Source: Solimonas sp. K1W22B-7 (GTDB taxonomy: Bacteria; Pseudomonadota; Gammaproteobacteria; Nevskiales; Nevskiaceae). From it: DNA of 64,000 nt. A program made the position numbers and the translations under genes. Position 1 is the stretch's first letter. Each line of letters starts with the position of its first letter. The DNA lies in contig NZ_CP031704.1 of assembly GCF_003428335.1 (NCBI RefSeq), positions 2,542,001 to 2,606,000 on the forward strand. Reading direction: 5' to 3'. Shown here in pieces: positions 11,852 to 34,472 of the stretch. The notes under the pieces are model-generated. The model had not been told where the DNA came from, searched no databases, and worked only from the letters and a program-made list of their open reading frames with translations.

Positions 11852-11864
11852 GGTTCACTCCGGC

Positions 11865-16756: not shown

Positions 16757-17833
16757 TCAAGCCACGGCGGCGGCAAGGCCGATCAGCCGCTGCTGGTGCT
16801 CGGCGACCTCCACCAGCATGCCGTGAACCGGCAGGTGATGGCCGTCGGCGATGACGCGAAGCGCCTGTTGCCGCAGCTGACGCCAGGCATCGAGATTGGC
16901 CGCGGCCAGGGCCTCGTGCGCTTCAAGCGCCAGGGCTTCGCGCCGGGAAGGAGGCAGCGGCAGGCCGCCGATGACGATGCGGAGCAGCGCCAGGCTGCGG
17001 CCGGGCTTGTCGCAGTGGAAGTTCAGGTGGCTCAGGCTCAATTGCCCGGGGCTGTACTGGACATGGGGGAGGTCCTGCGCCGGCCTGTGGCTGGTACGGC
17101 AGATTCTGAGGCGTCCGAGCCCGGCCAGTTCGATCTCCAGCGACAGGCTGAGGGCGCAGCGAGTCTGGAGGGCGGCGTAGCCGCAGCCCAGGAGAAGGTC
17201 GAGCGCGTCCCTGGAACGGTAGCGGGCATAGCATTGCGCGTCGTCGGCGGGACCGGCACGGCGGATCCTCAGGCCATGCTCCGGTTCTACCCGCAGCCGC
17301 GTGCCCTCCGGGTGGTGGTTGAGGATTTCACCGATCGGGAACAGTACGGGCTCGCGCTGGCCATCGTGCTTCAGCGGCAGGCGGCGGGTGCGCAGGAAGG
17401 CCTCGGCGACACCCTCCGGCCAATCGAAATGCGGGCACCAGCGGGAGAGGTCCACGCGGAGCGGATCGCCGGCGGCCAGCGCGACTGCCGGCAGATGCCG
17501 GCGCGACCAGGCCAGCTTGCCGGTGACCCGGTACAGGCGCAGCATCGCGTCGAGGATCTCGCGCTGGAGCGGGCTGAGGCGGCCGCCATCGTCGCGCAGT
17601 GCCAGCTCGTCTTCGTCATGCCAGCTGAGCCCACTGATCGGAACCAGCAGCGGCCGCGGAATCCATATCAGCCGGTCGCTTGCATCCGCTGTTCCGTCCG
17701 TGCTGGCCCAGAGGTCGCTGCCGCGCTGGTGAACGACCAAGTCGGGGCTCAGCCAACCGCCGTGACGCTCCAGAAGAGCTGCGAGGCTGGCGTAGGCATC
17801 GTGGGCTTCGGGATGGTCTGCGTCGATGCGCAT
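16757..17833 (-). CDS. SET-domain-like protein at the edge of the RiPP locus
   Basis: 358 residues from ATG 17833 (MRIDADHPEAHDAY); a longer reading frame continues upstream but would intrude on the divergent promoter region. The middle resembles the C-terminal half of Rubisco-LSMT/SET proteins: L-F-P-I-G-E-I-L-N-H-H-P-E-G (about 167-180), then Y-R-S-R-D-A-L-D-L-L-L-G-C-G-Y, the counterpart of the 'YG-x-x-S/N-x-x-L-L-x-x-Y-G-F' motif. If active it would be a SAM-dependent protein or peptide lysine methyltransferase. The gene is divergent from the HPr-kinase gene, which places it with the RiPP genes by position only. Confidence 0.5.
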   Translation of the reverse strand: MRIDADHPEAHDAYASLAALLERHGGWLSPDLVVHQRGSDLWASTDGTADASDRLIWIPRPLLVPISGLSWHDEDELALRDDGGRLSPLQREILDAMLRLYRVTGKLAWSRRHLPAVALAAGDPLRVDLSRWCPHFDWPEGVAEAFLRTRRLPLKHDGQREPVLFPIGEILNHHPEGTRLRVEPEHGLRIRRAGPADDAQCYARYRSRDALDLLLGCGYAALQTRCALSLSLEIELAGLGRLRICRTSHRPAQDLPHVQYSPGQLSLSHLNFHCDKPGRSLALLRIVIGGLPLPPSRREALALEAHEALAAANLDAWRQLRQQALRVIADGHHLPVHGMLVEVAEHQQRLIGLAAAVA

Positions 17834-17926
17834 GGTGTGTGTTCGTCGGGGGCGAATGGCAACTCTGCGAGCTCGGGCATGCTGCCGCAGCGAGGCAGCA
17901 GCGGCAAGCCCGCCGCCAGCCGTGCG

Positions 17927-17955
17927 TTTCAAGCTGCGCTCTGCTTGCGTAGAAT
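17927..17955 (+). promoter_or_regulatory. Candidate promoter for the HPr-kinase/PqqD/sulfotransferase operon
   Basis: TTTCAA (weak -35) is followed after 17 bp by TAGAAT (-10, five of six consensus bases). The predicted transcript start near 17962 leaves a leader of about 34 nt before the GTG at 17996. It also makes the in-frame ATG at 17954, which overlaps the -10 element, an unlikely start. Confidence 0.4.
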
Positions 17956-17995
17956 GCGCCGACTCCATTCGACGACAAGGCACAGGCCAGGACCG

Positions 17996-18925
17996 GTGTT
18001 CAGATATCGGTTGTTCGATTTCAACATCGCGTCCGAGATGGCCTGTCCGGAGCTTCCGGAGGCCTGGGGCGACGCGGATGTCCAGATCCGCTTCGGCGCC
18101 ACGCCGGAGCGGCTACCCCAGGCGGTCCGTAGCGGGCTCTGCCTCGCCGCCGCTCCCGGAGAGGCGCTGCTCTCGCTGCCGGGCATCGGCCGCTTCCATG
18201 TGCGCGATGGCGCCGAGATCATGATCGAACCGGCCGCGGGCATCGCGCAGGGTCATCTGCGCGTGTTCCTGCTCAACCTGGTCTTCGGCCTGCTGCTGCT
18301 GCAGCGCGGAGAGCTGGTCCTGCACGCCGCGGTCGTCGAAACGGATGATGGCTGCATCGCCCTGGCCGGCGAATCGGGTACGGGCAAATCGACGCTGGCC
18401 GCGGCCCTGCACGCTCGCGGGCGGCGCGTGCTGTCCGACGAGTTCTGCGTGGTCAGGAACATCCCCGGCCAGGGGCCGAGCGTCGTTCCCGGCCCCCCGT
18501 ATCTCCAGGTCTGGGCCGATGCCCTGAGCCAACTCGGCTACGATCCTGCGCGGCTGGAGCCGGTCCGCCCGGGTCTCGCCAAGCACGTTCTGCCCCTGGG
18601 TTCCGGGCATGCCGACCGCGTCCTGCCGCTGCGCGGTATCCATATCCTGTCCCCCTGGAACGGCGCCGGCGCGGAGTCGGAAGCGCTGTCGGGCCCGGAT
18701 CGCATGGAGGCCTGCATCTGCAACACCTACCGCTCCGAGTGCCTGCGCCCGATGGGGCTGGCCGCCGCGCACTTCGCGCAGGCACTCAAGCTGGCCGGCG
18801 AGGTGCCGTTCCTGCGCTTGCGCACACCCGGATACTGGGGGGCGATGGACCAGATTCTCGAGTTGCTGCCAGCACGCCCGGGGCGGTCGCAACACCCCAC
18901 CACTTCATCGCGGACCATCGAATGA
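17996..18925 (+). CDS. HPr kinase-like protein 1 (putative RiPP peptide serine kinase)
   Basis: 309 residues from GTG 17996, preceded by CCAGGACC. The C-terminal half is an HprK/P-type kinase fold with Walker A G-E-S-G-T-G-K-S (about 125-132) and an acidic L-S-D-E-F pair (about 146-150). The N-terminus FRYRLFDFNIASEMACPEL is characteristic of lasso-cluster HprK homologues. In paeninodin the homologue PadeK phosphorylates the C-terminal Ser of the precursor. The precursor here also ends in Ser, so the same activity is likely. The stop overlaps the PqqD start (ATGA at 18922-18925). Confidence 0.85.
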   Translation: MFRYRLFDFNIASEMACPELPEAWGDADVQIRFGATPERLPQAVRSGLCLAAAPGEALLSLPGIGRFHVRDGAEIMIEPAAGIAQGHLRVFLLNLVFGLLLLQRGELVLHAAVVETDDGCIALAGESGTGKSTLAAALHARGRRVLSDEFCVVRNIPGQGPSVVPGPPYLQVWADALSQLGYDPARLEPVRPGLAKHVLPLGSGHADRVLPLRGIHILSPWNGAGAESEALSGPDRMEACICNTYRSECLRPMGLAAAHFAQALKLAGEVPFLRLRTPGYWGAMDQILELLPARPGRSQHPTTSSRTIE

Positions 18926-19236
18926 CGAAGCTGATACTGACCCCGGACACCCGGATCTCCCGCAAGGGCGACATCCTGGCATCGAAGCTGGACCACGAGA
19001 CCGTGCTGCTGGACGTCGAAGGCGGCCACTACTATGCCTACGACGCCGTGGGCAGCCGAATCTGGGAACTGATCGCCGAGCCCCGGACCATGGCCCAGCT
19101 GTGCCAGGCCCTGGTCCGGCAGTACGACATCGACATGGCGCGTTGCGAGCGTGAGGTGCTGGCTTTCCTGGAGGCCTTGTCCGCGCACGGCCTGCTGCGC
19201 TGCGAGGGAGACGGGTGGGAGCCGCCCCGCCCGTGA
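18922..19236 (+). CDS. PqqD-like RiPP recognition element (lasso B1 protein)
   Basis: 104 residues, a complete stand-alone PqqD domain. The first half supplies the beta strands that bind leader peptides (ETVLLDVEGGHYYAYDAVG), and the second half a three-helix bundle with W-E-L-I-A-E and V-L-A-F-L-E-A-L. In lasso pathways this protein captures the leader through its Y/W-x-x-P-x-L motif and hands it to the B2 protease. It is translationally coupled to the kinase (4-bp overlap) and to the next sulfotransferase (GTGA). Confidence 0.88.
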   Translation: MTKLILTPDTRISRKGDILASKLDHETVLLDVEGGHYYAYDAVGSRIWELIAEPRTMAQLCQALVRQYDIDMARCEREVLAFLEALSAHGLLRCEGDGWEPPRP

Positions 19237-20087
19237 GGCGCATCGTCTGGCTCGCGTCCTACCCGAAGTCGGGCAACACCTGGTTTCGCGCTCTGCTGGC
19301 GAACCTGCAGCGCGATCGTTCCGGGCCGGCATCCATCAACGAGCTCGGCGCCCTGGGTTTCGGCTCGCGCTCGCGTTTCGACCACGTGGCCGGCGTCGAT
19401 TCGGCGGACCTGAGCGCGGTGGAGACGGATCGCCTGCGGTCGCAGGTCTACCGGCAGCTGGCCGTGTCGATACCGGACGACGAGCCGGTGTTCTTCAAGA
19501 TCCACGATGCCTACCTCGGGCCCTTGGAACGGCAGCCCCTGGTTCCGGCCGATGCCAGCCGCGGCGCGATCTACCTGGTGCGCAACCCGCTCGACGTCTG
19601 CGTGTCCTACGCCCGGCATTCGAACTGGGACATCGACACCGCCATCGCTCGCATGGCGGACGAGGAGCATGGACTGGCAAGGAGCAGGAATCGCCTGGAC
19701 CGGCAACTGCGCCAGCACCTGTCGAGCTGGGGCGGGCATGTGCGCAGCTGGATCGACAACGGCGAGGTTCCGGTCCACCTCGTCCGCTACGAGGACCTCC
19801 GGGCCAGGCCGGTGGAGACCGTGGCCGCCGCGCTGGCCTTCGCCGGCTTGGCCCGTGATGCGGCGGAGATCGAACGCGCGGTCGAGTGGAGCAGCTTCGA
19901 GCGCCTCCAGGCGCAGGAGCGGGCAGGGGGCTTCAGCGAGAAGCCGCGCCTGCTGCCGGCCTTCTTCCGGCGGGGCGTCAGCGACGGCTGGCGCCAGGAC
20001 CTGACGCCCGACCAAGCTGCCTGCATCACCCGCGACCATGCGCCGACCATGCGACGGCTGGGATACCTCGATACAGCCGGTCCGTGA
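19233..20087 (+). CDS. Sulfotransferase 1 (PAPS-dependent)
   Basis: 284 residues if the GTG at 19233, which overlaps the PqqD stop as GTGA, is used; another GTG at 19215 is possible. The 5'-phosphosulfate loop is A-S-Y-P-K-S-G-N-T-W (about 6-15) and the 3'-phosphate-binding segment is Y-L-V-R-N-P-L-D-V-C-V-S-Y (about 118-130). The fold matches cytosolic sulfotransferases. Its coupling to the leader-binding protein and its position just before the precursor gene make the precursor's only Tyr (residue 57) or a Ser/Thr a likely acceptor. That substrate is inference. Confidence 0.85.
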   Translation: MRRIVWLASYPKSGNTWFRALLANLQRDRSGPASINELGALGFGSRSRFDHVAGVDSADLSAVETDRLRSQVYRQLAVSIPDDEPVFFKIHDAYLGPLERQPLVPADASRGAIYLVRNPLDVCVSYARHSNWDIDTAIARMADEEHGLARSRNRLDRQLRQHLSSWGGHVRSWIDNGEVPVHLVRYEDLRARPVETVAAALAFAGLARDAAEIERAVEWSSFERLQAQERAGGFSEKPRLLPAFFRRGVSDGWRQDLTPDQAACITRDHAPTMRRLGYLDTAGP

Positions 20088-20192
20088 AGGCTGGGCGCGG
20101 GCTCTGCGAGCAGGAGTGCCGCTCCGGACTCCCGTCCGCCACAGCCATCTGCTACGATCCTTGAAGCCCCATTCGTTTCGAGGACGACGAAC

Positions 20193-20375
20193 ATGACTGA
20201 ACTCAACGGCCGCTTCCCCCGCCCGGTGCCGGGCACGGATCAGGCGGAGTCCACGGGCGAGCGGGAGCCCTGGGTCACGCCCACGCTGCGTGTGCTCGCG
20301 ATGCCGCAGACCAAGGGTAGCGGCAAGACCAGCACCCCGACTCCCATGGAAGGCACGATGTACGGGCCGTCCTGA
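20193..20375 (+). CDS. Lasso-type RiPP precursor peptide
   Basis: 60 residues with a GAGGACG ribosome-binding site nine bases before the ATG. The leader carries W27-V-T-P30-T-L32-R-V-L35, fitting the Y/W-x-x-P-x-L motif bound by B1 proteins. Thr40-Lys41 then fits the Thr(-2) cleavage rule, giving a 19-residue core from Gly42 to Ser60. The C-terminal Tyr57-Gly-Pro-Ser60 offers one Tyr and a terminal Ser as modification sites. The core's only acidic residue is Glu53 (position 12), not 7-9 as in known lasso rings. The alignment to the paeninodin precursor (P-x-L-x-V-L-x-x-x-Q-T) is from memory. The gene sits between sulfotransferase 1 and the hydroxylase. Confidence 0.8.
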   Translation: MTELNGRFPRPVPGTDQAESTGEREPWVTPTLRVLAMPQTKGSGKTSTPTPMEGTMYGPS

Positions 20376-20415
20376 GCGAAGGGTTTCTGACGCGCGAACT
20401 GGACGACAGGCAGGC

Positions 20416-21414
20416 ATGCGGCTGGCCGCGGCATTCCATCGTCTGGGCCTGCTGTTCGATGCCGAGTGCCTGCGGCAGGAGGCTCTGCAGTTCGGCGAGG
20501 CGGCCTGGCGGCCTCACCCGGGTGGGTTGCCCGGCAACACCTCGCTGCCCCTGGTGTCAGCGCACGGGGGCGACAACGACGACACGCGCGGTCCCATGCG
20601 GCCCACGGCCGCACTGCGGCGTTGCCCCTACATCCGGCAGGCGCTCGCTTCCTTCGAGACGGTGATCGGCCGCACGCGGCTGATGCGCCTGGAGGCCGGG
20701 GCCGAGGTCCCCCCTCACTTCGATTCGCATTACTACTGGCACGACCGTGTGCGCGTTCACCTGCCTGTGGTCAGTGACCCGGAGGTCAGGTTCGTCTGCG
20801 ACGGTCATGAGCTGCACATGGCGCCGGGCGAGGCCTGGCTGCTGGACAATTCGCGGAGCCATGCGGTCGTCAATGCCTCCGGCGTCGCCCGCATCCACCT
20901 GGTCTTCGATACGGTCGGCTCGGCGGCTTTCTGGGAGTTGCTGGACCGCGCCGGGCCACCTGAGCACCCGCAGCCCGCAGCCCTTGGCCCGCGTCGCATC
21001 GTCTTCGATCCGGGGCTCGACGCGCGGGTCATCACCGAGCGCTGCAACCTGCCGGCCGTGATGCCGGCGACCGAACTGGCCGCGCTGATCGCCGAGGCGC
21101 TGGCCGACGCCGCGCCGGAGCCCGGCAACCCGCTCCATGCCGAGGCACTGCCGCGTTTCGCCGCGTCCTCGCGGCGCTGCTTGAGCGACTGGCGGGCCAC
21201 CTGGGCCGCGCATGGCGAGGACCCCGACGGCTGGGCAGCGTTCCGCGTCCTGCAGCAGCGGCTCCTTGCGGAGCTTGCCCAGCTGCCCGAGGACCTGCGG
21301 GTGCGCAGCAACGGCCGCAGGCTGGTGCGGGTGCTCAAGCCCTTCTACCAGGCCGCGCTCGATCCTGCGATCGTGGCGGAGACCTCGCGCCGGCCCGCAG
21401 CCCTGTCCCCGTGA
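20416..21414 (+). CDS. Aspartyl/asparaginyl beta-hydroxylase-like dioxygenase 1, with C-terminal extension
   Basis: 332 residues from ATG 20416, which lies after CAGGCAGGC and 40 bp after the precursor stop. Residues about 85-165 form the double-stranded beta-helix of the Asp/Asn hydroxylase family: metal ligands H101-x-D103 in P-P-H-F-D-S-H-Y-Y-W-H, H115 in R-V-H-L-P-V, and His149 in N-S-R-S-H-A-V-V-N. About 150 further residues after the fold have no motif I recognise. An Fe(II)/2-oxoglutarate hydroxylase next to a precursor suggests peptide hydroxylation; the core has no Asp/Asn, so the target may be Pro or another residue. Confidence 0.75.
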   Translation: MRLAAAFHRLGLLFDAECLRQEALQFGEAAWRPHPGGLPGNTSLPLVSAHGGDNDDTRGPMRPTAALRRCPYIRQALASFETVIGRTRLMRLEAGAEVPPHFDSHYYWHDRVRVHLPVVSDPEVRFVCDGHELHMAPGEAWLLDNSRSHAVVNASGVARIHLVFDTVGSAAFWELLDRAGPPEHPQPAALGPRRIVFDPGLDARVITERCNLPAVMPATELAALIAEALADAAPEPGNPLHAEALPRFAASSRRCLSDWRATWAAHGEDPDGWAAFRVLQQRLLAELAQLPEDLRVRSNGRRLVRVLKPFYQAALDPAIVAETSRRPAALSP

Positions 21415-22295
21415 CCGGGCTGTTGCCAGCGCTCGACCGGCCGGTCTTCATCGTCGCCGCACCGCGCTCCGGCAGCAGCCTGCTGTTCGAGATGCTGTCG
21501 CGTGCATCGGCGCTCTGGACCCTGGGGGGCGAGGCGCGCGCCGAGTTCGAGACCGTTCCCCGCTGGAACCCGCGCCAGCGGGGATACGATTCGAACCGGC
21601 TCACGGCGGGCGACCTCGGGCTCGGCGACCGCGCGCAACTGCTGCTGGCGATGTCGCGGCGGCTGCGCAACAGTGAAGGCGTCCGATGGCGTGCGCTCAC
21701 CGCCGAGGCACGGCCCGGTTGCCTGCGCTTCCTGGAAAAGACCCCAAAGAATGCTCTGCGCGTCCCGCTGCTGCGTACCCTGTTCCCGGACGCCCGCTTC
21801 ATCTTCCTGCTGCGGGATCCCCGCGATAACGTCAGCAGCATCCTGGAGGCCTGGCGCTCCGGTCGCTTCGTGAACTACCGGGACCTGCCGGACTGGCCCG
21901 GGCCGCCGTGGTCCCTGCTGCTGCCGCCGGGCTGGCGGGAGCTGCGGGGCGCTTCGCTGGAGCGGATTGCCGCCTTCCAGTGGCGCGCCGCCAACGAGAT
22001 CGCGCTGAACGATCTGCTCGCGCTGCCCGGCAGCGACTGGTGCGCGCTGCGCTACGAGGATCTGCTTGCGGCGCCGGCCGCGGCGGTTGCGCAACTCTGC
22101 AGCTTCATGGAAGTTCCCTGCTGCCTCGGGCTCCAGGCGGCCGTCGCTTCCGACCTGCCCCCTTCGCAGCACACCCTGACGCCGCCCGCGCCCGGAAAGT
22201 GGCGGCAGAACGAAGCGCAGATCCGATCGGTGCTGCCCGGGCTGGAGGAGACCTGGGCGCGGCTGCAGGCGCTGCCCGCGCTGGGCGCGCAGTAG
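21411..22295 (+). CDS. Sulfotransferase 2
   Basis: 294 residues from GTG 21411, which overlaps the hydroxylase stop (GTGA). PAPS-binding motifs are V-A-A-P-R-S-G-S-S-L-L-F-E-M-L (about 14-28) and F-L-L-R-D-P-R-D-N-V-S-S-I (about 131-143). It belongs to the 'Sulfotransfer_3'-like group and is only remotely similar to sulfotransferase 1, so the three sulfotransferases are not recent copies of each other. A tail-specific or sugar-specific acceptor is possible. Confidence 0.85.
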   Translation: MTGLLPALDRPVFIVAAPRSGSSLLFEMLSRASALWTLGGEARAEFETVPRWNPRQRGYDSNRLTAGDLGLGDRAQLLLAMSRRLRNSEGVRWRALTAEARPGCLRFLEKTPKNALRVPLLRTLFPDARFIFLLRDPRDNVSSILEAWRSGRFVNYRDLPDWPGPPWSLLLPPGWRELRGASLERIAAFQWRAANEIALNDLLALPGSDWCALRYEDLLAAPAAAVAQLCSFMEVPCCLGLQAAVASDLPPSQHTLTPPAPGKWRQNEAQIRSVLPGLEETWARLQALPALGAQ

Positions 22296-22309
22296 GGACG
22301 CGCTGCTGC

Positions 22310-23242
22310 ATGGAATACCGGGTGCCCACCGGAATCGACTTCGCCGCGCAGCCGCCGCAGCTGCTCTGGCGGCCGACGGATGGCGGGCGTTTCGCCGAAC
22401 CCTTTTTCGATGACACGCTGTCGCGGCTGCGACGCGCCGCCGCAGGGCGCCCGCCGGTTTCGACGACGCCGCTGGCGTCCTGGAGGCAGGGTAGCGGCGC
22501 GACGCGGCCCGCGGCGTTCATCCTGCACGTCTCGCGCTGCGGCTCGACCCTGCTGTCGCGGATGCTCGCCGCGCTGCCCGTTCACCTCGTGGTGTCGGAG
22601 GCGCGCATCTTCGACGATATCCTCAGGGCGCAGGCGCCACTCCAGGGCATGGCGCCGGACTGGCGCGATGCCTGCCTGGCTAGTGCCGTGGAGGCCTTCG
22701 CCGCCTCGCAGGCGCTGCCCGCGCAGAGGCTGTTCATCAAGCTGGACTGCTGGCACCTCTTCGAGCTGCAGCGGCTGCGCCGGGTCTTCCCGGGCGTACC
22801 CCTGCTGTTCGTGCATCGGCATCCGCTGGAAGTGCTGGTGTCGCTGATGCAGCGCCCTTCGTTCACGCTGGTGCGCGACACGGTGACACCGGAGGAGATG
22901 GGGGTCTCGGCGGAACAGCGCGATGCCATGCCGCCGGAAGTCCACGCCGCCGCCATCCTCGGCGCCTTCTTCCGCGAGGCCGCGAGGCAGCGCGAGCAGC
23001 TGGTTTCCGTGCCCTACGAAGCATTGCCGGACCTGGCCTGGAGCGGCATGGCGGGACTGCGGTTCTCGCCGCAGGAGGTGGCGGCGCTGCGGCTTGCGGG
23101 GGAGAACGATGCCAAGCACCCCGACGGTCGCTTCGTCCCCGACGCGGAGCGCAAGCGGGCCGCCGCGAGCGGCGCGATCCGCGCCGCTTGCGCGCAGTGG
23201 GCCGAGCCCGCCTACGAACGCTGGTGCTCGGGCAGGGACTGA
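22310..23242 (+). CDS. Sulfotransferase 3 (divergent family member)
   Basis: 310 residues from ATG 22310, preceded by AGGGACG. H-V-S-R-C-G-S-T-L-L-S-R-M-L (about 71-84) replaces the usual P-R-S-G-S-S loop but keeps the phosphate-binding Ser-Arg-x-Gly-Ser-Thr pattern. L-F-V-H-R-H-P-L-E-V-L-V-S-L (about 165-178) matches the 3'-phosphate segment. Such C-G-S-T variants are common among uncharacterised sulfotransferases near peptide clusters. Its last 31 bp overlap the convergent hydroxylase gene. Confidence 0.75.
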   Translation: MEYRVPTGIDFAAQPPQLLWRPTDGGRFAEPFFDDTLSRLRRAAAGRPPVSTTPLASWRQGSGATRPAAFILHVSRCGSTLLSRMLAALPVHLVVSEARIFDDILRAQAPLQGMAPDWRDACLASAVEAFAASQALPAQRLFIKLDCWHLFELQRLRRVFPGVPLLFVHRHPLEVLVSLMQRPSFTLVRDTVTPEEMGVSAEQRDAMPPEVHAAAILGAFFREAARQREQLVSVPYEALPDLAWSGMAGLRFSPQEVAALRLAGENDAKHPDGRFVPDAERKRAAASGAIRAACAQWAEPAYERWCSGRD

Positions 23243-23910
23243 GCCCGGACCATGAGCGCCCGCAGTTCCGGGCCCACCGGCGCATCCACCACCAGGTGGA
23301 CGCGCGCTTCGCTGCCGTCGTTGTGGAGCGAGTGGGTGTCCGAGAGTCGCAGGTACCAGCATTCCCCCGCCCGCATGACAACCGGCGTTCCGTTCAACAC
23401 GAAGCGGACGCCAGGGTTGGTCCGCACCGGGATGTGAATCCGCGCATGCCCCTGCCCGTCCAGGTCCGGGTCGCTGTGCGGCTTCACCACGGCGCCAGGG
23501 TCGAGCCGCATCAGCCTGGCGGCAGCCAGGGGAAAGCCCAGCCCCCGCAGGACCTCCTGGAAGGCGGGCAGCCGGTCGAGCAACGGCGCATCGACGTAGG
23601 CGGTGGTTCCGGGGTGGGAGCTGATCTGCAGGATGGGGTGCTGCCGCTCGGTCCCCGCCGGAATCCGCAGCGGGATCGCGCACCATCGCCCCTGGTAGTG
23701 GTCGGACACGAAGTGATCGATCCAGGCCCGGGCCTCCAGGGCGGCGAGTTCCCCGGCCAGCCGGGCCGGATCGAATCGCAGGGGCAGCCGCAGCCGGTCC
23801 GGCCACTCATCACGGGCCAGCGAGGCCGGTGGGGCAAGCCTGCGGCGGGCGGGGGTTCCGGTCACGGCGATTCGGGTCTCGCGGTCGGGCTGTGGGCGGC
23901 GACCCATCAT
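23212..23910 (-). CDS. Aspartyl/asparaginyl beta-hydroxylase-like dioxygenase 2
   Basis: 232 residues with the full Asp_Arg_Hydrox fold: H145-x-D147 in V-V-K-P-H-S-D-P-D-L, the R-I-H-I-P-V strand (His159), and T-H-S-L-H-N (about 192-197) carrying the third metal ligand. It is compact and lacks the long tail of hydroxylase 1. It faces the sulfotransferase operon from the opposite strand with a 31-bp coding overlap. A second 2-oxoglutarate oxygenase implies either two different hydroxylations or two different peptide substrates. Confidence 0.8.
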   Translation of the reverse strand: MMGRRPQPDRETRIAVTGTPARRRLAPPASLARDEWPDRLRLPLRFDPARLAGELAALEARAWIDHFVSDHYQGRWCAIPLRIPAGTERQHPILQISSHPGTTAYVDAPLLDRLPAFQEVLRGLGFPLAAARLMRLDPGAVVKPHSDPDLDGQGHARIHIPVRTNPGVRFVLNGTPVVMRAGECWYLRLSDTHSLHNDGSEARVHLVVDAPVGPELRALMVRAQSLPEHQRS

Positions 23911-24619: not shown

Positions 24620-24625
24620 AGCGAC

Positions 24626-26890: not shown

Positions 26891-28777
26891 ATGTTCGCCG
26901 GACTGATGTGCCCCGGAACCGGGACCAGTCCGCTGCAGTTTGCGGAGCCCGGACGCCTGGGCGCGGCGCTCGCGCCCTATCACCGGCCCGACCGCGAGGG
27001 CCTGTGGTGCGAGGGGCCCGCCTTGCTGCTGGCGCAGCGGGTATTCAACGCGGCGGCCTCGCGCGATGAAGTCCTGCCGCTGCGCTGTGCCGAATCCGGC
27101 GCCGTGGTGGCCTTCTGGGGGCGCCTGGACAATCGCGGCGAGCTGGCGCAGGCCCTGGGGCTTCAGCCTGCGCAGCTCGGCCCCATGCTCGACAGCGCGC
27201 TGGTCCTCCAGGCCTGGCGCCGCTGGGGCGACGCCCTGCCGGAGCATCTGGCCGGCGATTTCGCGATCGCGGTGGTCGATCCGCGGCGCCGTCGCCTGCT
27301 CCTCGTGCGCGACGCGATGGGCATCAAGCCCTTGTACTACCGCGATGATGCCGGCGCCCTGGCCTTCGCGACCTCGGCCGCGGCCTTGAAGACGCTGCGC
27401 GGCATGGCGCTGACGCCCGATCGGCGCTGGATGGCCGAGTATGTGCTCTGGCTGTCGCCGTCCGAGGAGCGCACCGGCTACCGCGAGATCAGGAAACTGC
27501 CGCCCGGGCACCTGATGATCCTGGAGGCAGGCGCCAGGCCCCTGTTGCGGCGCTGGCACCACTGGCGCGACGACAGCCCGGACGCGGTCATCCGCGATTC
27601 CCGCTGGGTCGATGCCTATCGCGCGCGGCTGGAGGAGGCGATCCGCTGTCGCATGCCCAGCGAATATCCGCTGGGCACGGAGAACAGCGGCGGCATCGAT
27701 TCCGCGACGGTCACCAGCTACCTCGCGCGTTTCCTGGACGATCCCGGCGATCGCCTGCACGGCTTCGCCTTGCTGCTCTACGAAGAGGAGCAGGCCTTCA
27801 TCCTGGAAACCAGCCAGGCTGCGGGAATCCGCCACAACTACGTGGCCACCTCCCGCAACGAGAGCGAGGAGCAGCGCGAAGCCCTGCGGCTGCGCACGCT
27901 GCGGGTCATCGGCTATCCCGAGGAGAACGCCAACGGCAGCGGCCATACCCCGTTCTACCGCGAGGCGCAGGCGCGCGGCATCCGTACCCTGTACTCGGGC
28001 TTCGGCGGCGATGAGGTGGTCTCCAATCCGGCGGCACATGTGCGGCTGGAGATGCTGGATGCCGGCCGCTACGAAACCCTGCAGGACATGCTGCCAGGCA
28101 ATGCCCTGACCCGCCGCCTGCGCGTCGCCAGGATGCTGCTCAAGCGACGCGGCAAGCCCAGCCACGACCCGGTTTCCTGGCGGGCCCGCAACCTGCGGTG
28201 GTCGCAGCAGCCCCTGCGCCGGGAGGTGGTGGAGGAATTCGGCCTGCGCGATGCCTGGTTCGCCACCGCCGTTCATGATGCGCCCTACCGGCGCACCAAC
28301 GACTTCATCCTGCAGTACCTGCTGCGGCAGCCCTACATCGGGCAGCGCTTCGAAAGCTGCACGCTGTCGGCAGCGAGCTGGGGCATCGAATACCGCTGGC
28401 CCTTGTGGGATGCGCGCCTGGTGCAGCAGTACCTGTCGACGCCCAGCATCGAGAAACGCGGGCCGCGGCAGATGGGGCGCTATCTGCACCGGCGCGCCAT
28501 CGACGGCGTGGTGCCGGAGCGGGTGGCGTGGAAGCCCTCCAAGGACATGGGCCGCTTCATCCAGTGGCCGGATGGGCCCGCGCTGTCCGGCAGCCAGATC
28601 CGGGCGCTGGCGGGGAACCTGCACCCGGCGGTCGCCGAACTGGTCGATCCGTCCTGCCTGCTGCGCTGGGTGGATGGGCAGCCTAGCGGCAACCTGGCTC
28701 CCGCGGCAGGTTTCGCCGTACGCCGCTACCTGGGGACGCTGCTCTGGCTGAATGCCTGGCTCGTGCAGGCGCCTTGA
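26891..28777 (+). CDS. Lasso-type macrolactam cyclase (asparagine-synthetase homologue, lasso C)
   Basis: 628 residues from ATG 26891, chosen because GGGAGC lies just upstream and the protein then starts M-F-A-G-L-M-C, the usual beginning of lasso cyclases. Position 2 is Phe, so the glutaminase Cys nucleophile is missing, as in known lasso cyclases. The N-terminal domain keeps L-L-V-R-D-A-M-G-I-K-P-L-Y-Y. The ATP-pyrophosphatase motif S-G-G-I-D-S-A-T-V (about 262-270) and G-F-G-G-D-E-V-V (about 370-377) indicate an active adenylating domain. It would activate a side-chain carboxylate and close the ring. It is coupled to the ATP-grasp gene (TTGA). Confidence 0.88.
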   Translation: MFAGLMCPGTGTSPLQFAEPGRLGAALAPYHRPDREGLWCEGPALLLAQRVFNAAASRDEVLPLRCAESGAVVAFWGRLDNRGELAQALGLQPAQLGPMLDSALVLQAWRRWGDALPEHLAGDFAIAVVDPRRRRLLLVRDAMGIKPLYYRDDAGALAFATSAAALKTLRGMALTPDRRWMAEYVLWLSPSEERTGYREIRKLPPGHLMILEAGARPLLRRWHHWRDDSPDAVIRDSRWVDAYRARLEEAIRCRMPSEYPLGTENSGGIDSATVTSYLARFLDDPGDRLHGFALLLYEEEQAFILETSQAAGIRHNYVATSRNESEEQREALRLRTLRVIGYPEENANGSGHTPFYREAQARGIRTLYSGFGGDEVVSNPAAHVRLEMLDAGRYETLQDMLPGNALTRRLRVARMLLKRRGKPSHDPVSWRARNLRWSQQPLRREVVEEFGLRDAWFATAVHDAPYRRTNDFILQYLLRQPYIGQRFESCTLSAASWGIEYRWPLWDARLVQQYLSTPSIEKRGPRQMGRYLHRRAIDGVVPERVAWKPSKDMGRFIQWPDGPALSGSQIRALAGNLHPAVAELVDPSCLLRWVDGQPSGNLAPAAGFAVRRYLGTLLWLNAWLVQAP

Positions 28778-30015
28778 GCACCGGGCCGCAGCGCTGGGCG
28801 ATGCTCCTGCGCAGGTATGGGCGCAAGCCTGGCCCGCATGGCTTGCTGGGGCCCGGGGTGCTGTTGCACGGGTTCGGCGCGCGGGGGCGCTTGCACCTGC
28901 GGCTCTGGTGGCGATCCGGGCCGCGGCTGCCCCGGCTGCTGTGGTTGCTGGGAGAAAGCTGGTTGTGGCTGCGCTGGTCGGGCCTCCACGCCTGGCGCCA
29001 GAGCTACCAGGCCGCAGGCTCGCTGTCCCGCGAGGCGGGCGGCGCGGGAGCCGGGCCCTTGCCGCGCGAGTTCTTCCGCTTGCTGCGGCTGGCGCTCTGG
29101 TGGGGCATCCCGCCCTTCGAGGCCCGGCGCCTGGGCGTTCACCACCGCCCCGGCACGGCGCTGGACTACGTCTACGATCTGGAGGCGGGCGCCTGGAGCC
29201 GCCTCTGCAGCCCGGGGCCCGAGGCGGAGCGCTCCCGCAGGCTGCTGGCCGACAAGATCCGCTGCGCCGAAGTCTTGCGGGCCGAAGGAATCCCGACCGT
29301 CGAAACACTGCACTGCCTGCCGCGGCATGACGGCGCGGCACTGGATCCCTGCCTGGGCCGCGGCCAGCAGGCCTGGTTCTGCAAGGCCCGGGCGGGACAT
29401 GCCGGGCTGGGTGCGTTCGCGGTGTGGCGCGAAGGCGACAGCCTGCGCGGAAAAGGCTTCGACGGGCGACCCCTGGTGGATGCCGCGGCCGTGGCACAGG
29501 CCTGGCAGGCGCTTCTCGAACGCGGCGACGCGCTGGTCCAGCCCGCCCTGCGCAACCACCGCGGGCTGGGGGCGCTGTGCGACAGCGAAGAGGCCATCAC
29601 CCTGCGGCTGTTCACGCGCGGCGGGGGCGGACCCGCGTGGTTCGCGATGCTGGAGATCCCCGCGCCGGAGCCGCCGGGCGGCAAGGCAGGGCACAGCTAC
29701 GTGATCCTGCCGCTGGACGAGCAGGGATGCCCGCAACCGCGCCGTCCGGAGGACCTGCCGCCGGCGGCCCGCGCGGCGCAGACCGAGGTCTGTGCGCGTC
29801 TGCCGCAGGGATTCCGGGTGCCTCACTGGGAGGAGGTACTGGATCAGAGCAGGCATGCGCAGTCCCTGGTCCCCGGTCTCTGGGCGGCGGCCTGGGACTG
29901 GGTGATCACGCCGGAGGGCCCGGTCCTGCTGGAGGGCAACGCCGGCTTCGGCTTGTCGATGCTGCAGGCAGTCCGTGGCGGGCTGCTGGCGACCGGCGGT
30001 GGCATCGGGCGGTGA
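28774..30015 (+). CDS. ATP-grasp protein (sugar-transfer-associated type)
   Basis: 413 residues if the TTG overlapping the cyclase stop is used; ATG 28801 is the alternative, giving 404 residues. The N-terminal 70 residues are rich in Leu, Arg and Trp and may touch the membrane. From about 150 on there is an ATP-grasp fold: L-A-D-K-I-R-C-A-E-V-L-R-A-E-G-I-P, then A-L-V-Q-P-A-L-R-N-H and W-V-I-T-P-E-G-P-V-L-L-E-G-N-A-G-F-G with the metal-binding E-x-N (E388, N390). It resembles the 'ATPgrasp_ST' family linked with surface-sugar loci. Its role in the RiPP pathway is inferred. Confidence 0.7.
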   Translation: MSTGPQRWAMLLRRYGRKPGPHGLLGPGVLLHGFGARGRLHLRLWWRSGPRLPRLLWLLGESWLWLRWSGLHAWRQSYQAAGSLSREAGGAGAGPLPREFFRLLRLALWWGIPPFEARRLGVHHRPGTALDYVYDLEAGAWSRLCSPGPEAERSRRLLADKIRCAEVLRAEGIPTVETLHCLPRHDGAALDPCLGRGQQAWFCKARAGHAGLGAFAVWREGDSLRGKGFDGRPLVDAAAVAQAWQALLERGDALVQPALRNHRGLGALCDSEEAITLRLFTRGGGGPAWFAMLEIPAPEPPGGKAGHSYVILPLDEQGCPQPRRPEDLPPAARAAQTEVCARLPQGFRVPHWEEVLDQSRHAQSLVPGLWAAAWDWVITPEGPVLLEGNAGFGLSMLQAVRGGLLATGGGIGR

Positions 30016-30049
30016 GTGCCGCCGGCACCGCCCTGCGTAGCGCTGCCGC

Positions 30050-30577
30050 TCAGCGGGCCCCGGCGTAGTAGAACGTGCCCACCACGGTGAACTGCCTGAA
30101 GCTCGCGCCACCCGTGACCTTGACCGGGCCGGCGCTGATCCAGGCGTGGGCATTCATCTCGCTGCCGTCCGTGCCGTGGCGCAATCCGAAGTGCAGGGTG
30201 TAGGGTACGCGATAGAGCCGCAGCATCGCAGTGGCGGCAAGGGCTTGGGGAAAGCAGTTGGCGGTCCAGGGCGCGTAGCGCGCGGCCAGGCGCACCGAGC
30301 GGCCGATCTGGTCCGCGCGCCGGCTCTGCCGCGGCGTCAGCAGCGGAATCCAGGGGCAGGGACCCTGCTGGCGTCCCACCACGGGGGCCATCCTGCGGAA
30401 CGGCACCAGCAGGACCGCCGCCCGGCCGGCTCCGAGCAATAGCAGCACAGGGAAGAACCAGCCGAGCTCGAAGGCGGACCGGGAAGCTGCGTTACGGAGT
30501 CGTCGGCGCAGCCGCTGCCATCGCCCGGCGATCGCGGAGTCCGGGGTGGGGCTGGAAGTTTCGGCTGGCGGCGGCAT
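30050..30577 (-). CDS. Transglutaminase-like leader peptidase (lasso B2 protein)
   Basis: 175 residues. The catalytic Cys is in W-T-A-N-C-F-P-Q-A-L-A-A (about 107-118) and the catalytic His in M-N-A-H-A-W-I-S-A-G (about 143-152), the expected arrangement in lasso B2 proteases. One hydrophobic segment (about 39-60) precedes the catalytic core. With the PqqD-like protein it would remove the leader just before ring closure. It converges on the ATP-grasp gene with a 34-bp gap, so B2 is not co-transcribed with the cyclase. Confidence 0.85.
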   Translation of the reverse strand: MPPPAETSSPTPDSAIAGRWQRLRRRLRNAASRSAFELGWFFPVLLLLGAGRAAVLLVPFRRMAPVVGRQQGPCPWIPLLTPRQSRRADQIGRSVRLAARYAPWTANCFPQALAATAMLRLYRVPYTLHFGLRHGTDGSEMNAHAWISAGPVKVTGGASFRQFTVVGTFYYAGAR

Positions 30578-30674
30578 GCGTTCGGTTCACAGGACACGAT
30601 ATTCGGCGTTTGGCCGCAAGTACAGCCTTCCGCAAGGCCGGATTCCGGGCACCGTGCTCTTGCGGGGCACCACC

Positions 30675-31835
30675 TCAGCCCCGGAATTCGCGCCGTAGTG
30701 CCGCGGTGAGCCGCAGCAGCGGTGCCAGCCAGGGCCTGCGGGCGACCCGGGAGTAGGCTGCTTCGCCGATCTCCGGCGACACGCGCGTGGCGACCCAGCT
30801 CAGGTACTCGAAGCGTGCCGGGCCATCGCGCAGGGCCGCCCAGGCTGCAGCGTGCAGCAGGGCGCCCTCAGCGAGGGTTCGCCCCATGCCAGGGCCGCCG
30901 CGCAGCAGCTCGCTGCGCTCGCTGGCGGCGGCACGGCCCGTCAGGGCATCCGACAGCGAGCACCGCCAACCTGGCAGCCGCAGCTGCGCCGCCATGCTGC
31001 GCAGCACCTGGCGGGTGTAGGGATCCTGCGCCGCGATGACGCGCGGCTCCCAGGGCGAGGCGCCGGCGGCGCCGACGATCTCCAGCAGGTCATAGCCCCA
31101 TTTCCAGCGTGCGCAGCGGGAGCGGCAGGCGTGGCTGGCCAGGGAGTGTTGCTGCAGGGCCGGCGACAGCTGGCGCAGGCCCTGCAGTGGCCCTTCGGCG
31201 ATGACGCCGAGCCGCGGCAGCAGCTGCGCCAGCGGCGGCAGCGAGGTGCGGCGCAGGGGGTCGGTGCGCCAATGCAGCTCCAGGTAGCTGCCGCGCTCGT
31301 CGCGGAAATTGACGTGGTGCACCGTGCGCATGCGCTCGCGCCAGTGCAGGGCGTTGGGTGGCAGCGGCAGCGTCGGTCGGTAGCCCAGCCCCTGGAGCAC
31401 TTCCACCGCCTGCGGCAGCGCGGCAGGATCGACCAGCAGGTCGATGTCGCCGCTGTGGCGTACGCCGATGGCACCGTAGAGCTGCCAGGACAGCGCCTGG
31501 CCCTTGAGCGGCAGGCAGGGGATGCCCGCCCGTTCCAGCGCCTGGCTCGCCGCGAGACAGGCGGCGGTCTGCGACAGCGATGCGACAGCGCCGCGACGCT
31601 GCGCCTGGACCACCTCGTTCGCCAGTTGCGGCGGCAGCTGCTGCAATTGCTCGCGATGCCGCAGCGCCAGCACGCTGGCCACGCCGTGCAGCCGCAACTG
31701 CGCCGCGAACGCTGCCGAATCCACCAAGGCAACATCGGTTGCCGCGACCTGCTCGCCGGTCCAGCGGGAACGCAGCAGCAGCGCCAGCAGTTCCTCGGCG
31801 GAGCCAAGACTTTCGGGAGGAATCCTGGCCTTCAT
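30675..31835 (-). CDS. Nucleotidyltransferase family protein of RiPP-cluster type
   Basis: 386 residues from ATG 31835, which overlaps the glycosyltransferase stop (ATGA). The G-I-P-C-L-P-L-K-G-Q-A-L-S segment and the G-D-I-D-L-L-V-D motif (about 132-139), with its two metal-binding Asp residues, match the 'NTP_transf_5' family. That family occurs repeatedly beside HPr-kinase-like and lasso genes; in pseudomycoidin the homologue is linked to sugar addition on the phosphorylated peptide. Here it neighbours a glycosyltransferase, which fits such a role. Confidence 0.8.
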   Translation of the reverse strand: MKARIPPESLGSAEELLALLLRSRWTGEQVAATDVALVDSAAFAAQLRLHGVASVLALRHREQLQQLPPQLANEVVQAQRRGAVASLSQTAACLAASQALERAGIPCLPLKGQALSWQLYGAIGVRHSGDIDLLVDPAALPQAVEVLQGLGYRPTLPLPPNALHWRERMRTVHHVNFRDERGSYLELHWRTDPLRRTSLPPLAQLLPRLGVIAEGPLQGLRQLSPALQQHSLASHACRSRCARWKWGYDLLEIVGAAGASPWEPRVIAAQDPYTRQVLRSMAAQLRLPGWRCSLSDALTGRAAASERSELLRGGPGMGRTLAEGALLHAAAWAALRDGPARFEYLSWVATRVSPEIGEAAYSRVARRPWLAPLLRLTAALRREFRG

Positions 31836-32683
31836 TTCTCGATCGGCACGCCGGGATAGAGCTGCTGCAGCAATTCGCGGTCGGCCTGGTAGTCCTGGCG
31901 ATATCGCATGTAGTGGCGGTCGAACAGCGACTTGACGTGCAGGCAGCGCAGCGAGGGATCGAGCACGCTGCACAGCAGACCGTCGGCGCGGGTGAAGAAG
32001 TCGATGTGGTCGAGCCGCTTGAGCCGGGCGTCCCAGCCGACCTGCGCCAAGCGCGCGGTGCGCGCGATGAAGAAATTGGGCACCTTGCGCCGCCGCTCCA
32101 GACCGCCGATGCGTTCCGCCGCCGGCGCCGCGTCGGGCTTGTAGATCGACATCCGGCTGGAATCGTTCCACTCCATCATCGGCAGCGTGATGACGATCCC
32201 GCCAAGGATGTCGATGCACTCCTCCGCGACCAGCCGGCGCAGCGAGGCCAGCAGGTCGGTGCCGCGATAGAAGACGAAGTCGTCATCGAGGATCATCGTG
32301 TACGGCGTCCGCACCCGCGCCAGGCCGGCGTTGCGCCCGGCGGACACGCCGCTGTCGAAGGGCAGCGTCAGGTACTCCACGCTCTCGACCGGCTCGGAGT
32401 GGCGGCTGTCGTCGGCCACGACGATGCGGATGCGCGGGTAGTGCCGGCGGATGCTGCGCAGCAGGCGCAGCAGCAGCGGGCGACGCTCGAAGGTCTTGAC
32501 CACCAGAGTCAGCTGGTCCAGCAGGGCATCGTCGCCGCAGGGCGCCGGGCGCAGGACATCCGTCGCGCGTACCAGCCTCATCTGCGCGGCGACCAGACCG
32601 TGGTACAGCGGCGCGAAGACCGGGTTCAGCAGGGGATGCGCGGCCAGGAAGCGCCCCGGCCGCTTGATCAGGCGTTCACGCAT
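31832..32683 (-). CDS. Family 2 glycosyltransferase of the RiPP locus
   Basis: 283 residues from ATG 32683 (MRERLIKRPG), which overlaps the ABC transporter gene by 8 bp. The Rossmann start is L-T-L-V-V-K-T-F-E-R-R-P (about 59-70). V-V-A-D-D-S-R (about 88-94) and M-I-L-D-D-D-F-V-F-Y (about 131-140) hold the nucleotide-sugar and metal-binding acids, and W-D-A-R-L-K-R-L-D-H-I-D-F-F is the acceptor-region helix. It shares an apparent operon with the exporter and the nucleotidyltransferase, so it probably glycosylates the peptide product. Confidence 0.85.
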   Translation of the reverse strand: MRERLIKRPGRFLAAHPLLNPVFAPLYHGLVAAQMRLVRATDVLRPAPCGDDALLDQLTLVVKTFERRPLLLRLLRSIRRHYPRIRIVVADDSRHSEPVESVEYLTLPFDSGVSAGRNAGLARVRTPYTMILDDDFVFYRGTDLLASLRRLVAEECIDILGGIVITLPMMEWNDSSRMSIYKPDAAPAAERIGGLERRRKVPNFFIARTARLAQVGWDARLKRLDHIDFFTRADGLLCSVLDPSLRCLHVKSLFDRHYMRYRQDYQADRELLQQLYPGVPIEK

Positions 32684-34472
32684 GCACAGCCCCTTCGCCA
32701 CCCAGCCGCGCCAGGTAGCCGCTGCGGGAGAGTTCCTCGAAGCTGCCGCCCTCGCGTACCGTGCCGCGCTCCACCACATAGAGCCGGTCGGCGTCACGCA
32801 CCGTGGCGAGGCGGTGCGCGATGACCAGGATCGTCAGCTGGCCGTGCAGCTGCGTGAGGGAGTCCTGGATGCGGCGCTCGCTGTCGCGGTCGAGCGCGCT
32901 GGTGGCCTCGTCCAAGATCAGCAGCTGTGGCCGGCGCAGCAGCGCGCGGGCGATGGCCAGCCGTTGGCGCTCGCCGCCGGACAGGCGCAGGCCGCGCTCG
33001 CCCAGCACGGTGTCCAGGCCCTGCGGCAACTCGCGCACGAAGTCCGCGGCAGCCTGTGCCAGCGCTTCCCACAACTCCGTCTCGGTGACGTCCGGCTGGG
33101 TCCACAGCAGGTTGTCGCGCACGCTGGCATTGAGCAGGAAACCGTCCTGCGGCACATAGGCGACGCACTGGCGCCAGGCGCGCCGGTCGCGCAACACGGC
33201 GCCGTCGATCAGGATGCGCCCGGCACTGGGCGCAAGCAGGCCGCTGACCAGGTCGGCCAGCGTGCTCTTGCCTGCGCCGGAGGGGCCGATCAGGGCGACC
33301 GTGCTGAGCCAGGGGATGTCCAGGCTCACCTCCCGCAGGATATCGGCGGACGCTTCGGGCGGGCGATAGCAGATCTGCTCCAGCCGCAGCGCCTCGCGAA
33401 ACGGCGGCGGCGCACCCAGGCTGTCCGGCTCGGCGGCGGCGGCGCAACGACGGCGCATGGCGTCGAACGCGGCGTAGGCAGGCAGGGTGTAAAGCAGGCG
33501 CTCGTAGTTCTGCTGCAAGGTCGACAGGAACGGAAACAGGCGCGAGAAGATGAAGACCAGCACCAGCACCTTCGCCGGCGCGATGCGCATCTGCGTCAGC
33601 GCGAGATAGGTGAGCGCGGCCAGCGCGAGCGCACCGCCGACGCGCAGCAGGCCGCGTGAGATCGCCTGCCGCTGGGTGAAGGCCAGCAGCTCCGCGCGCG
33701 CCTCGCGCAGGCGTCCGCGATAGCGCTGCTCCGCGGCCTCCTCGAGGTTGCCGCCCTTGATCAGCCTGAGGCCGGACAGGAACTCGCTGGTTTCGCCCTG
33801 CAGCTGTCGCGTGACCTGGGTCAGGTGGTAGCCGCCGGCATGCGAGGCGGCATGCTGGCGACGCAGCAGCAGGAGCAGCATCCCGCCGAGAGCCAGCGTG
33901 AGGCCGGTCAGGGGTGCCGACAGGCTGAAGGCGATCGCAAGGTAGGCCAAGGCCATCACCGCCGTGGTCGACAGCTGCAGCAGCGCAGTCAGGCTCTGGT
34001 TGATACGGCCCAGGTCGGTGTTGAGCGCGTGGCTCAGTTCGGCGCTGTGCGTGCGCGCCAGGAACGACCACTCGGCGCGGCCGATGCCGCGGTACAGGTC
34101 CATGCGCAGGCGATCCACCAGACCCTGCTGAAGTTGCGCCGTGGCCAGGTCGCGCCGCCAGGAGAACAGCGAATGCAGCAGGATCAGCAGCAGGTAGCCC
34201 AGCAGCACGCCGCCCAGCGTGGGCGCCAGTCCGAGCTGCGCGAGCATCCCGAGCGGCCCGCCTGCATCGGTCTGCGGCCCTGTGCTCAGGCCGACCAGGC
34301 CCAGCATCGGTGCCAGTACCAGCAGCCCGCTGCCCTCGAGAACCGCCACCAGCAGCATCAGCGCGGCCGCCGCCAGCACGCCTGCGCGGTCGTGCCGGAG
34401 CACCTCCCGCAGCAGCCTGCGCAGCAGCGCGCCGCGCGCTTCGGGTTCGGGGTTCGGCAAGTCTGGGTTCAT
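32676..34472 (-). CDS. ABC exporter of the RiPP locus (lasso D protein, half-transporter)
   Basis: 598 residues from ATG 34472; an in-frame ATG at 34499 would add nine. Five or six membrane helices span about 35-320, followed by a nucleotide-binding domain: Walker A I-G-P-S-G-A-G-K-S-T-L-A-D (about 388-400), signature L-S-G-G-E-R-Q-R-L-A-I (about 500-510) and Walker B L-L-I-L-D-E-A-T. No peptidase C39 domain precedes the helices, so it exports a mature peptide and gives self-resistance, as lasso D proteins do. It heads the exporter/glycosyltransferase/nucleotidyltransferase operon. Confidence 0.88.
   Translation of the reverse strand: MNPDLPNPEPEARGALLRRLLREVLRHDRAGVLAAAALMLLVAVLEGSGLLVLAPMLGLVGLSTGPQTDAGGPLGMLAQLGLAPTLGGVLLGYLLLILLHSLFSWRRDLATAQLQQGLVDRLRMDLYRGIGRAEWSFLARTHSAELSHALNTDLGRINQSLTALLQLSTTAVMALAYLAIAFSLSAPLTGLTLALGGMLLLLLRRQHAASHAGGYHLTQVTRQLQGETSEFLSGLRLIKGGNLEEAAEQRYRGRLREARAELLAFTQRQAISRGLLRVGGALALAALTYLALTQMRIAPAKVLVLVFIFSRLFPFLSTLQQNYERLLYTLPAYAAFDAMRRRCAAAAEPDSLGAPPPFREALRLEQICYRPPEASADILREVSLDIPWLSTVALIGPSGAGKSTLADLVSGLLAPSAGRILIDGAVLRDRRAWRQCVAYVPQDGFLLNASVRDNLLWTQPDVTETELWEALAQAAADFVRELPQGLDTVLGERGLRLSGGERQRLAIARALLRRPQLLILDEATSALDRDSERRIQDSLTQLHGQLTILVIAHRLATVRDADRLYVVERGTVREGGSFEELSRSGYLARLGGEGAVHA

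Follow-up and report, generated by a model that had tools for sequence, protein, structure and literature searches.

A lasso-type peptide locus with an unusually large set of candidate tailoring genes in Solimonas sp. K1W22B-7

Introduction

Do the many tailoring genes around a lasso-type biosynthetic locus of Solimonas sp. K1W22B-7 belong to one pathway, and would they all act on a single peptide? We addressed this question in a stretch of 64,000 nucleotides (contig NZ_CP031704.1, positions 2,542,001 to 2,606,000; referred to as the window) of the 5.37 Mb genome; positions 16757-34499 of the window carry a full gene set for a lasso-type RiPP (ribosomally synthesized and post-translationally modified peptide). 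The initial annotation had suggested that two HPr-kinase-like proteins, three sulfotransferases, two 2-oxoglutarate oxygenases, an ATP-grasp protein, a nucleotidyltransferase, a glycosyltransferase, a GNAT enzyme and a SET-like protein all act on one precursor. Our analysis supports the assignment as a lasso-type RiPP locus and the unusual size of its tailoring set, and with moderate confidence we favor a kinase-bearing pathway resembling those of paeninodin and pseudomycoidin, whose tailoring enzymes would act on the precursor A. Published systems are compared here through excerpts of the cited papers.

Core lasso genes and layout of the locus

The genes for the precursor and the four core lasso functions were re-mapped to the positions at which they had initially been annotated:

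18922-19236, plus strand: B1, PqqD-type leader-binding protein (PF05402 PqqD, E 8e-20, above the curated cut-off)
20193-20375, plus strand: A, precursor peptide of 60 amino acids (leader W..P.L...Thr; core end E-G-T-M-Y-G-P-S)
26891-28777, plus strand: C, macrolactam cyclase resembling asparagine synthetase (PF00733, E 4e-26, above the curated cut-off)
30050-30577, minus strand: B2, transglutaminase-like leader peptidase (PF13471, E 7e-23, above cut-off)
32676-34499, minus strand: D, ATP-binding cassette (ABC) exporter (PF00005, E 2e-31, and PF00664, E 2e-13, above the curated Pfam cut-offs)

The locus thus combines a PqqD-type B1 with a transglutaminase-like B2, both above the cut-offs of their families, and an asparagine synthetase homologue whose N-terminus, MFAG, lacks the cysteine that serves as nucleophile in glutamine-dependent asparagine synthetases. 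The lasso-specific models scored below their cut-offs (NF033536 for B1, 78.1 bits, cut-off 80; NF033535 for C, E 3e-71, 240.8 bits, cut-off 525). Only one PF13471 match and one match to the window cyclase (E 1e-40) were found in the source genome, both within the locus, and the named record with the closest cyclase match is Solimonas sp. SE-A11. Precursor A has no family match in Pfam and NCBIfam scans; its leader motif and gene position agree with those of precursors in related loci.

The genes HPrK1, B1, ST1, A, OH1, ST2 and ST3 form a tight run on the plus strand. HPrK1 overlaps B1, B1 overlaps ST1, and OH1 overlaps ST2 by 4 bases, while 40 bases separate A from OH1 and 14 bases ST2 from ST3.

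Candidate tailoring genes

The following candidate tailoring genes lie with the core genes:

17996-18925, plus strand: HPrK1, HPr-kinase-like protein (TIGR04352, E 3e-14, and PF07475, E 4e-4, both below the curated cut-off)
19215-20087, plus strand: ST1, sulfotransferase (PF00685, E 6e-20, above cut-off; SYPKSGNTW loop)
20416-21414, plus strand: OH1, 2-oxoglutarate hydroxylase of the Asp_Arg_Hydrox family (PF05118, E 1e-15, above cut-off; start set at the beginning of the alignment with L049)
21411-22295, plus strand: ST2, sulfotransferase (PF13469, E 4e-24, above cut-off)
22310-23242, plus strand: ST3, sulfotransferase (PF13469, E 1e-8, above cut-off)
23212-23910, minus strand: OH2, second PF05118 hydroxylase (E 6e-13, above cut-off)
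24626-25555, minus strand: HPrK2, HPr-kinase-like protein (PF07475, E 3e-4, and TIGR04352, E 5e-8, both below the curated cut-off)
28774-30015, plus strand: ATP-grasp protein (PF14397, E 4e-15, above cut-off)
30675-31835, minus strand: nucleotidyltransferase (PF14907, E 9e-32, above cut-off)
31832-32683, minus strand: family 2 glycosyltransferase (PF00535, E 1e-11, above cut-off)

Judged by their families and motifs, these enzymes seem capable of phosphorylation, sulfation, hydroxylation and perhaps the attachment of sugar. HPrK2 has an intact SDD motif and P-loop and retains the His, the P-loop Lys and both Asp residues of the kinase-bearing lasso clade. In HPrK1 the P-loop is intact and the DD pair reads Asp-Glu, the second Asp being replaced. 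The loop that binds 3′-phosphoadenosine 5′-phosphosulfate (PAPS) is kept in ST1 and ST2; ST3 does not match the loop pattern, yet a similar stretch, SRCGSTLL, is visible, and relatives of ST3 are present in the lasso loci L006, L007 and L028. The HxD motif is conserved in both hydroxylases. Graspetides are made by a family of ATP-grasp macrocyclases that act on side chains; such an origin of the ATP-grasp protein found no support, PF14397 being the sole Pfam match at E ≤0.1 and two NCBIfam models matching weakly, below cut-off.

Conservation of the gene set in related loci

Searches with the window cyclase gave 2 positive genomes among 85 of the order (E 1e-40), 2 among 369 of the class (1e-80) and 5 among 398 of the phylum (1e-60), each count including the window's own genome, as well as 1 among 48 genomes of the order of G617 (1e-100). 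The cyclase of G506 found 3 positives among 78 genomes (1e-60), and cyclase profiles found 5 among 385 (1e-90), 1 among 3 and 6 among 109. Among plasmids, the window cyclase had no match at E 1e-60; relaxing the threshold to 1e-20 added a single hit, an asparagine synthase of Halopiger. We compared 19 relative loci with a cyclase, including the SE-A11 match and loci from a plasmid search; the plasmid loci L028 and L029, first obtained by a sulfotransferase search and also by the cyclase profile, carry distant cyclases. Three kinds of stretch stand outside the 19: L010, a second SE-A11 cyclase match (30%) in 19 kb with no other window-protein match; L025 and L026 (4.6 kb each, cyclase 29%, ST1 homologue); and L027, with a kinase, sulfotransferases and no cyclase in the stretch, whose two precursors are among the 26 analyzed below. 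The 19 loci are not independent, since L018 and L019 share one genome, L037 and L040 another, and L006 and L007 are near-copies; absences are weak in L019, L048 and L007 because these stretches are short (4.1, 6.2 and 8.0 kb).

An HPr-kinase-like gene is present in 16 of the 19 loci and an ST1- or ST3-family sulfotransferase in 14, and in 12 the kinase gene immediately precedes ST1. Kinase and sulfotransferase are therefore a standing part of these loci and, as far as gene content tells, their grouping in the window is not coincidental. The initial annotation had proposed that co-occurrence in relatives be checked for all tailoring genes. This holds for the kinase and the sulfotransferase and fails for the rest: the ATP-grasp protein is found in seven loci, the nucleotidyltransferase in six, PF05118 in three, a GNAT homologue in two, the SET-like protein in one, and the glycosyltransferase as well as a DUF6916 protein (see below) in none of the 19. 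B2 was found in 11. 2-Oxoglutarate oxygenases of other families occur as well, PF13640 in at least L028, L029, L039 and L040, and JmjC_2 in at least L007 and L028.

L039 (1-19900) packs three lasso-type sub-clusters into 20 kb, with three copies each of the cyclase, kinase, ST1 and B1 genes, and L005, the SE-A11 locus, has a methyltransferase-like protein (16622-17767, plus strand) between B1 and the kinase, of which no counterpart was noticed in the window locus. In L022, a tryptophan halogenase family protein (12559-14046, minus strand; PF04820, E 2e-94) lies among lasso-type genes; Trp chlorination of lasso peptides is already in print (PMC13352647).

A hydroxylase-sulfotransferase pair that is fused elsewhere

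In two distant lasso loci, L049 and L051, PF05118 and PF13469 are joined in one protein that adjoins the precursor. The two fusions show 33% and 32% identity to OH1 over ∼330 residues, and 40% and 38% to ST2 over ∼275 residues. Such a fusion suggests two consecutive steps, in which OH1 would hydroxylate and ST2 would then sulfate.

Several results weigh against our reading that this pair acts on A. A search with the L049 fusion (E 1e-25) matched nine of the 369 genomes of the class, and only in the window genome and G338 does the match lie in a lasso locus. Four of the other seven genomes have hydroxylase-sulfotransferase fusions and three the hydroxylase alone; no homologue of C, B1, B2, the HPr kinase or ST1 was found in those seven stretches. 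TonB receptors lie within 4 kb in three of them, and TPR-sulfotransferases are present in three. Moreover, OH1 and ST2 are nearer to the non-lasso fusion L066 (47% and 52%) than to the lasso fusions (33% and 40%). Because fusions and lone hydroxylases also occur away from lasso genes and one of these fusions is closer to the window pair, the pair alone is, on gene context, no proof of a peptide substrate. The fusions away from lasso loci indicate that the pair was recruited into lasso loci, once or several times. In the cyclase tree, the window groups with SE-A11 (support 100/99) and a clade of the window, L049 and L051 is rejected (p 3e-7), while the hydroxylase and sulfotransferase trees neither reject nor support this clade (p 0.10 and 0.18). 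A transfer of OH1-ST2 with the precursor from one origin was accordingly dropped, the cyclase tree being against the clade and the other two neutral.

In the stretches L066-L069, which are not lasso loci, a PF05118-like hydroxylase is fused to a sulfotransferase; L068 has two further 2-oxoglutarate oxygenases nearby, along with a TPR-sulfotransferase and a TonB receptor.

The non-lasso occurrences raise the alternative that only the core lasso genes, the kinase and ST1 form the pathway, with OH1, ST2, ST3 and OH2 being passengers or acting elsewhere. In line with this, no PF05118 hydroxylase, ST2 or ST3 was found in the 21.9 kb of L005, the closest cyclase relative (67%) and from the same genus, and a plasmid stretch that lacks lasso genes has an OH2 homologue next to its collar genes (see below). 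However, OH1 begins just after A, overlaps ST2 and belongs to the same uninterrupted plus-strand series as B1, ST1 and A, the fused protein adjoins the precursor in both L049 and L051, and a precursor motif tracks PF05118. These counter-arguments are weak for OH2; for the group as a whole we consider the passenger explanation unlikely.

Precursor peptides and the ring-size question

We compared 26 precursors, A and 25 others, which were identified by pattern searches followed by visual removal of candidates that looked like noise; L022, L047 and L048 gave none. The leader of A contains W-V-T-P with a Thr at P+10, the YxxP/WxxP-plus-Thr arrangement, and a Thr at P+10 or P+11 is present in 24 of the 26. 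All 26 end in Ser, including those found without an end filter, although the search pattern for most loci itself required Ser or Thr as the last residue, which counts against our reading; A itself, ending in YGPS, has the Ser C-terminus of the kinase-bearing clade. The motif E-G-x-x-Y occurs in all four precursors from PF05118 loci and in none of the 22 others (Fisher p 7e-5), a value that is not corrected for kinship and overstates the link, given few and possibly related precursors, and so also tells against us.

The rings of lasso peptides have 7-9 residues (PMC8498205). A point overlooked in the initial annotation is that A, if cleaved with Thr at -2, has no Asp or Glu at core positions 7-9, its sole acid being Glu12. 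An acid at 7-9 is present in 18 of the 24 precursors with Thr at P+10 or P+11; the six without are A, those of L049 and L051 and three of L020, with Glu at 12, 10, 11 and 12, respectively. Cleavage after Ser-Gly would place the Glu of A at position 9, and in all six precursors a Ser/Thr-Gly pair stands exactly at the site that yields an 8- or 9-residue ring. The permutation product for this placement is 3.6e-5 (one precursor per locus, four loci), a post hoc value because the core was first read as an expanded ring and the Ser-Gly alternative was seen later.

Normal Thr(-2) cleavage would thus lead to macrolactam rings of 10-12 residues, that of the window being GSGKTSTPTPME with 12, a tentative model to which we give somewhat less than an even chance. 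It agrees with the Thr at P+10 or P+11, which all six odd precursors retain, and fusilassin enzymes tolerate engineered rings of 7-10 residues (PMC13352647). Rings of 10-12, however, lie outside the range given in PMC8498205 and mostly beyond that of fusilassin, and the placement of the Ser/Thr-Gly pairs speaks against them. A leader cut after Ser-Gly would instead give an ordinary nine-residue ring, KTSTPTPME, in which the Lys at position 1 is unusual; we see a chance just short of even for this model. Besides the permutation result, it draws on BsfA, where position -2 is not Thr but a proven Ile and YxxPxL spans -17 to -12, so that the Pro lies 12 residues before -2 (PMC10368454). Yet this cut requires a spacing of 12-14 from Pro to -2, compared with 10-11 in the 18 precursors combining Thr(-2) with an acidic residue at 7-9; BsfA shows a spacing of 12 only, and the conserved P+10 Thr is left unexplained. 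We hold the two cleavage models about equal. The computed masses of the unmodified macrolactams differ, with 1665.738 Da for the 16-residue product of the Ser-Gly cut and 1866.813 Da for the 19-residue product with a 12-residue ring.

A far-reaching version, which we think improbable, would be a lasso-type family with Thr(-2) cleavage and natural rings of 10, 11 and 12 residues, whose precursors would be hydroxylated and then sulfated by the recruited pair and would also carry a C-terminal phosphate. These bulky charged groups might serve as stoppers for a ring that is too wide to be held by side-chain plugs.

In L020, three paralogous precursors (11279-11434, 11530-11685 and 11780-11959, all minus strand) share T-E-x-x-S-G-K; the locus has a kinase and an ATP-grasp protein, and no sulfotransferase was found in it.

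Proposed pathway

In the kinase-bearing pathway that we favor, B1 would hold the W/YxxP leader and offer linear precursor A to the tailoring enzymes. At least one HPr-kinase-like enzyme would phosphorylate the C-terminal Ser, and the nucleotidyltransferase may extend this phosphate with a sugar. Within E-G-x-x-Y or close to it, OH1 would hydroxylate a residue whose new hydroxyl ST2 would then sulfate, while ST1 and ST3 would sulfate other hydroxyls. B2 would then cut off the leader, C would join the amino terminus of the core to the Glu in E-G, and export of the product would fall to D. The genes, their families, motifs and overlaps, their recurrence and the hydroxylase-sulfotransferase fusion are observations; from these sequence data we infer the chemical steps, the target residues and their order.

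The kinases of paeninodin and pseudomycoidin phosphorylate the C-terminal Ser, and in pseudomycoidin a hexose is put on the phosphate by PsmN (PMC8498205, PMC9266682). BsfK phosphorylates Ser3, indicating that lasso kinases are not all C-terminal (PMC10368454). This and, on sequence grounds, the Asp-to-Glu change in the DD pair of HPrK1 add to the points against our reading. The claim that all tailoring genes serve one peptide survives only in part: the grouping of kinase and sulfotransferase speaks for it, and the hydroxylase-sulfotransferase fusions away from lasso loci and the GNAT enzyme in a separate module speak against it.

SET-like protein and tail-collar module

Four further genes lie in or beside the operon:

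16757-17833, minus strand: SET-like protein, divergent from the operon (homologue in the SE-A11 lasso locus, 39-45% by alignment)
24044-24619, plus strand: tail-collar protein of the tail fibre family (PF07484, E 1e-26)
25664-26173, plus strand: GNAT acetyltransferase (PF00583, E 2e-11, above cut-off)
26395-26679, minus strand: DUF6916 protein (PF21880, E 3e-21)

The SET-like protein has no Pfam match, and among solved structures it matches, up to E 5, SETD6 alone (E 0.71). A structure prediction from two sequences reached a mean pLDDT (predicted local distance difference test) of 39.9 and was not used. Its assignment to the SET family is unproven.

Aminobacter, Pontibrevibacter and Azospirillum plasmids carry the collar, GNAT and DUF6916 genes as a group, in stretches where tblastn with the window lasso proteins found no lasso genes and only collar genes and one ABC ATPase. 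The GNAT enzyme was therefore rejected as a lasso tailoring enzyme. By this gene context, the collar protein is probably part of a separate module, and the GNAT and DUF6916 proteins go with it. Collar genes are present in six of the 19 relative loci (L018, L019, L022, L037, L049 and L051), in L018 ∼8 kb from the cyclase, and GNAT homologues in L018 and L022, both of which also have collar genes. OH2 may belong to the same module, because an OH2 homologue (32%, E 1e-31) lies with three collar genes and a GNAT match in a Pseudoalteromonas plasmid stretch (L053, 4975-9520), and no window lasso genes were found there by tblastn. From the initial tailoring list, the two HPr-kinase-like proteins, the three sulfotransferases, the two PF05118 proteins and the ATP-grasp, nucleotidyltransferase and glycosyltransferase genes are thus retained, and the GNAT enzyme and perhaps OH2 drop out as members of a separate module.

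Relation to known systems

The pathway kind and the pairing of kinase and sulfotransferase in lasso clusters are already known. Like the window, paeninodin (padeA, K, B1, B2, C, D) and SyanA/SyanK combine a split B1/B2, a cyclase resembling asparagine synthetase, an HPr kinase homologue and a precursor ending in Ser (PMC8498205, PMC5067487). The excerpts on paeninodin and SyanK describe one kinase and no hydroxylase, in contrast to the two kinase-like genes, three sulfotransferases, two hydroxylases and ATP-grasp protein of the window, whose precursor, unlike that of paeninodin, has its acceptor outside 7-9 under Thr(-2). Pseudomycoidin (psm) shares the kinase and nucleotidyltransferase with the window, whereas no sulfotransferase or hydroxylase is described for it in the excerpts (PMC8498205, PMC9266682). 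CanE of canucin A, likened here to OH1 by its description, is a 2-oxoglutarate hydroxylase acting on the linear precursor; unlike in the window, the excerpts describe no coupled sulfotransferase (PMC8498205, PMC9266682). The BsfA/BsfK locus also has a kinase and a precursor with a residue other than Thr at -2, but BsfK acts on Ser3 and BsfA ends in Asp (PMC10368454).

In 2014, some lasso clusters of anaerobes were reported to contain both an HPr kinase and a sulfotransferase gene (PMC4289311), and Firmicutes lasso clusters with a sulfotransferase gene have been described as well (Zhu 2016c as cited by PMC8498205); as far as these excerpts go, function is not shown there and no hydroxylase-sulfotransferase pair is described. 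The earlier view that known clusters carry at most one or two tailoring genes is dated, since a 2026 review mentions lasso peptides with multiple unique post-translational modifications, many modifications being known (PMC13352647). The word "sulfotransferase" is absent from the text of this review. Among the matches listed in the open-licence literature, there was neither a sulfated lasso peptide nor a hydroxylase-sulfotransferase pair in a lasso locus. New are the OH1-ST2 pair that is fused elsewhere, the link of E-G-x-x-Y to PF05118, and a precursor without an acid at 7-9 under Thr(-2).

The locus brings together several candidate enzymes for one substrate, among them the hydroxylase and sulfotransferase whose chemistry is predicted by their fused counterparts in other loci. 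Precursor A, in turn, poses a sharp question of ring size or cleavage that one mass measurement could answer.

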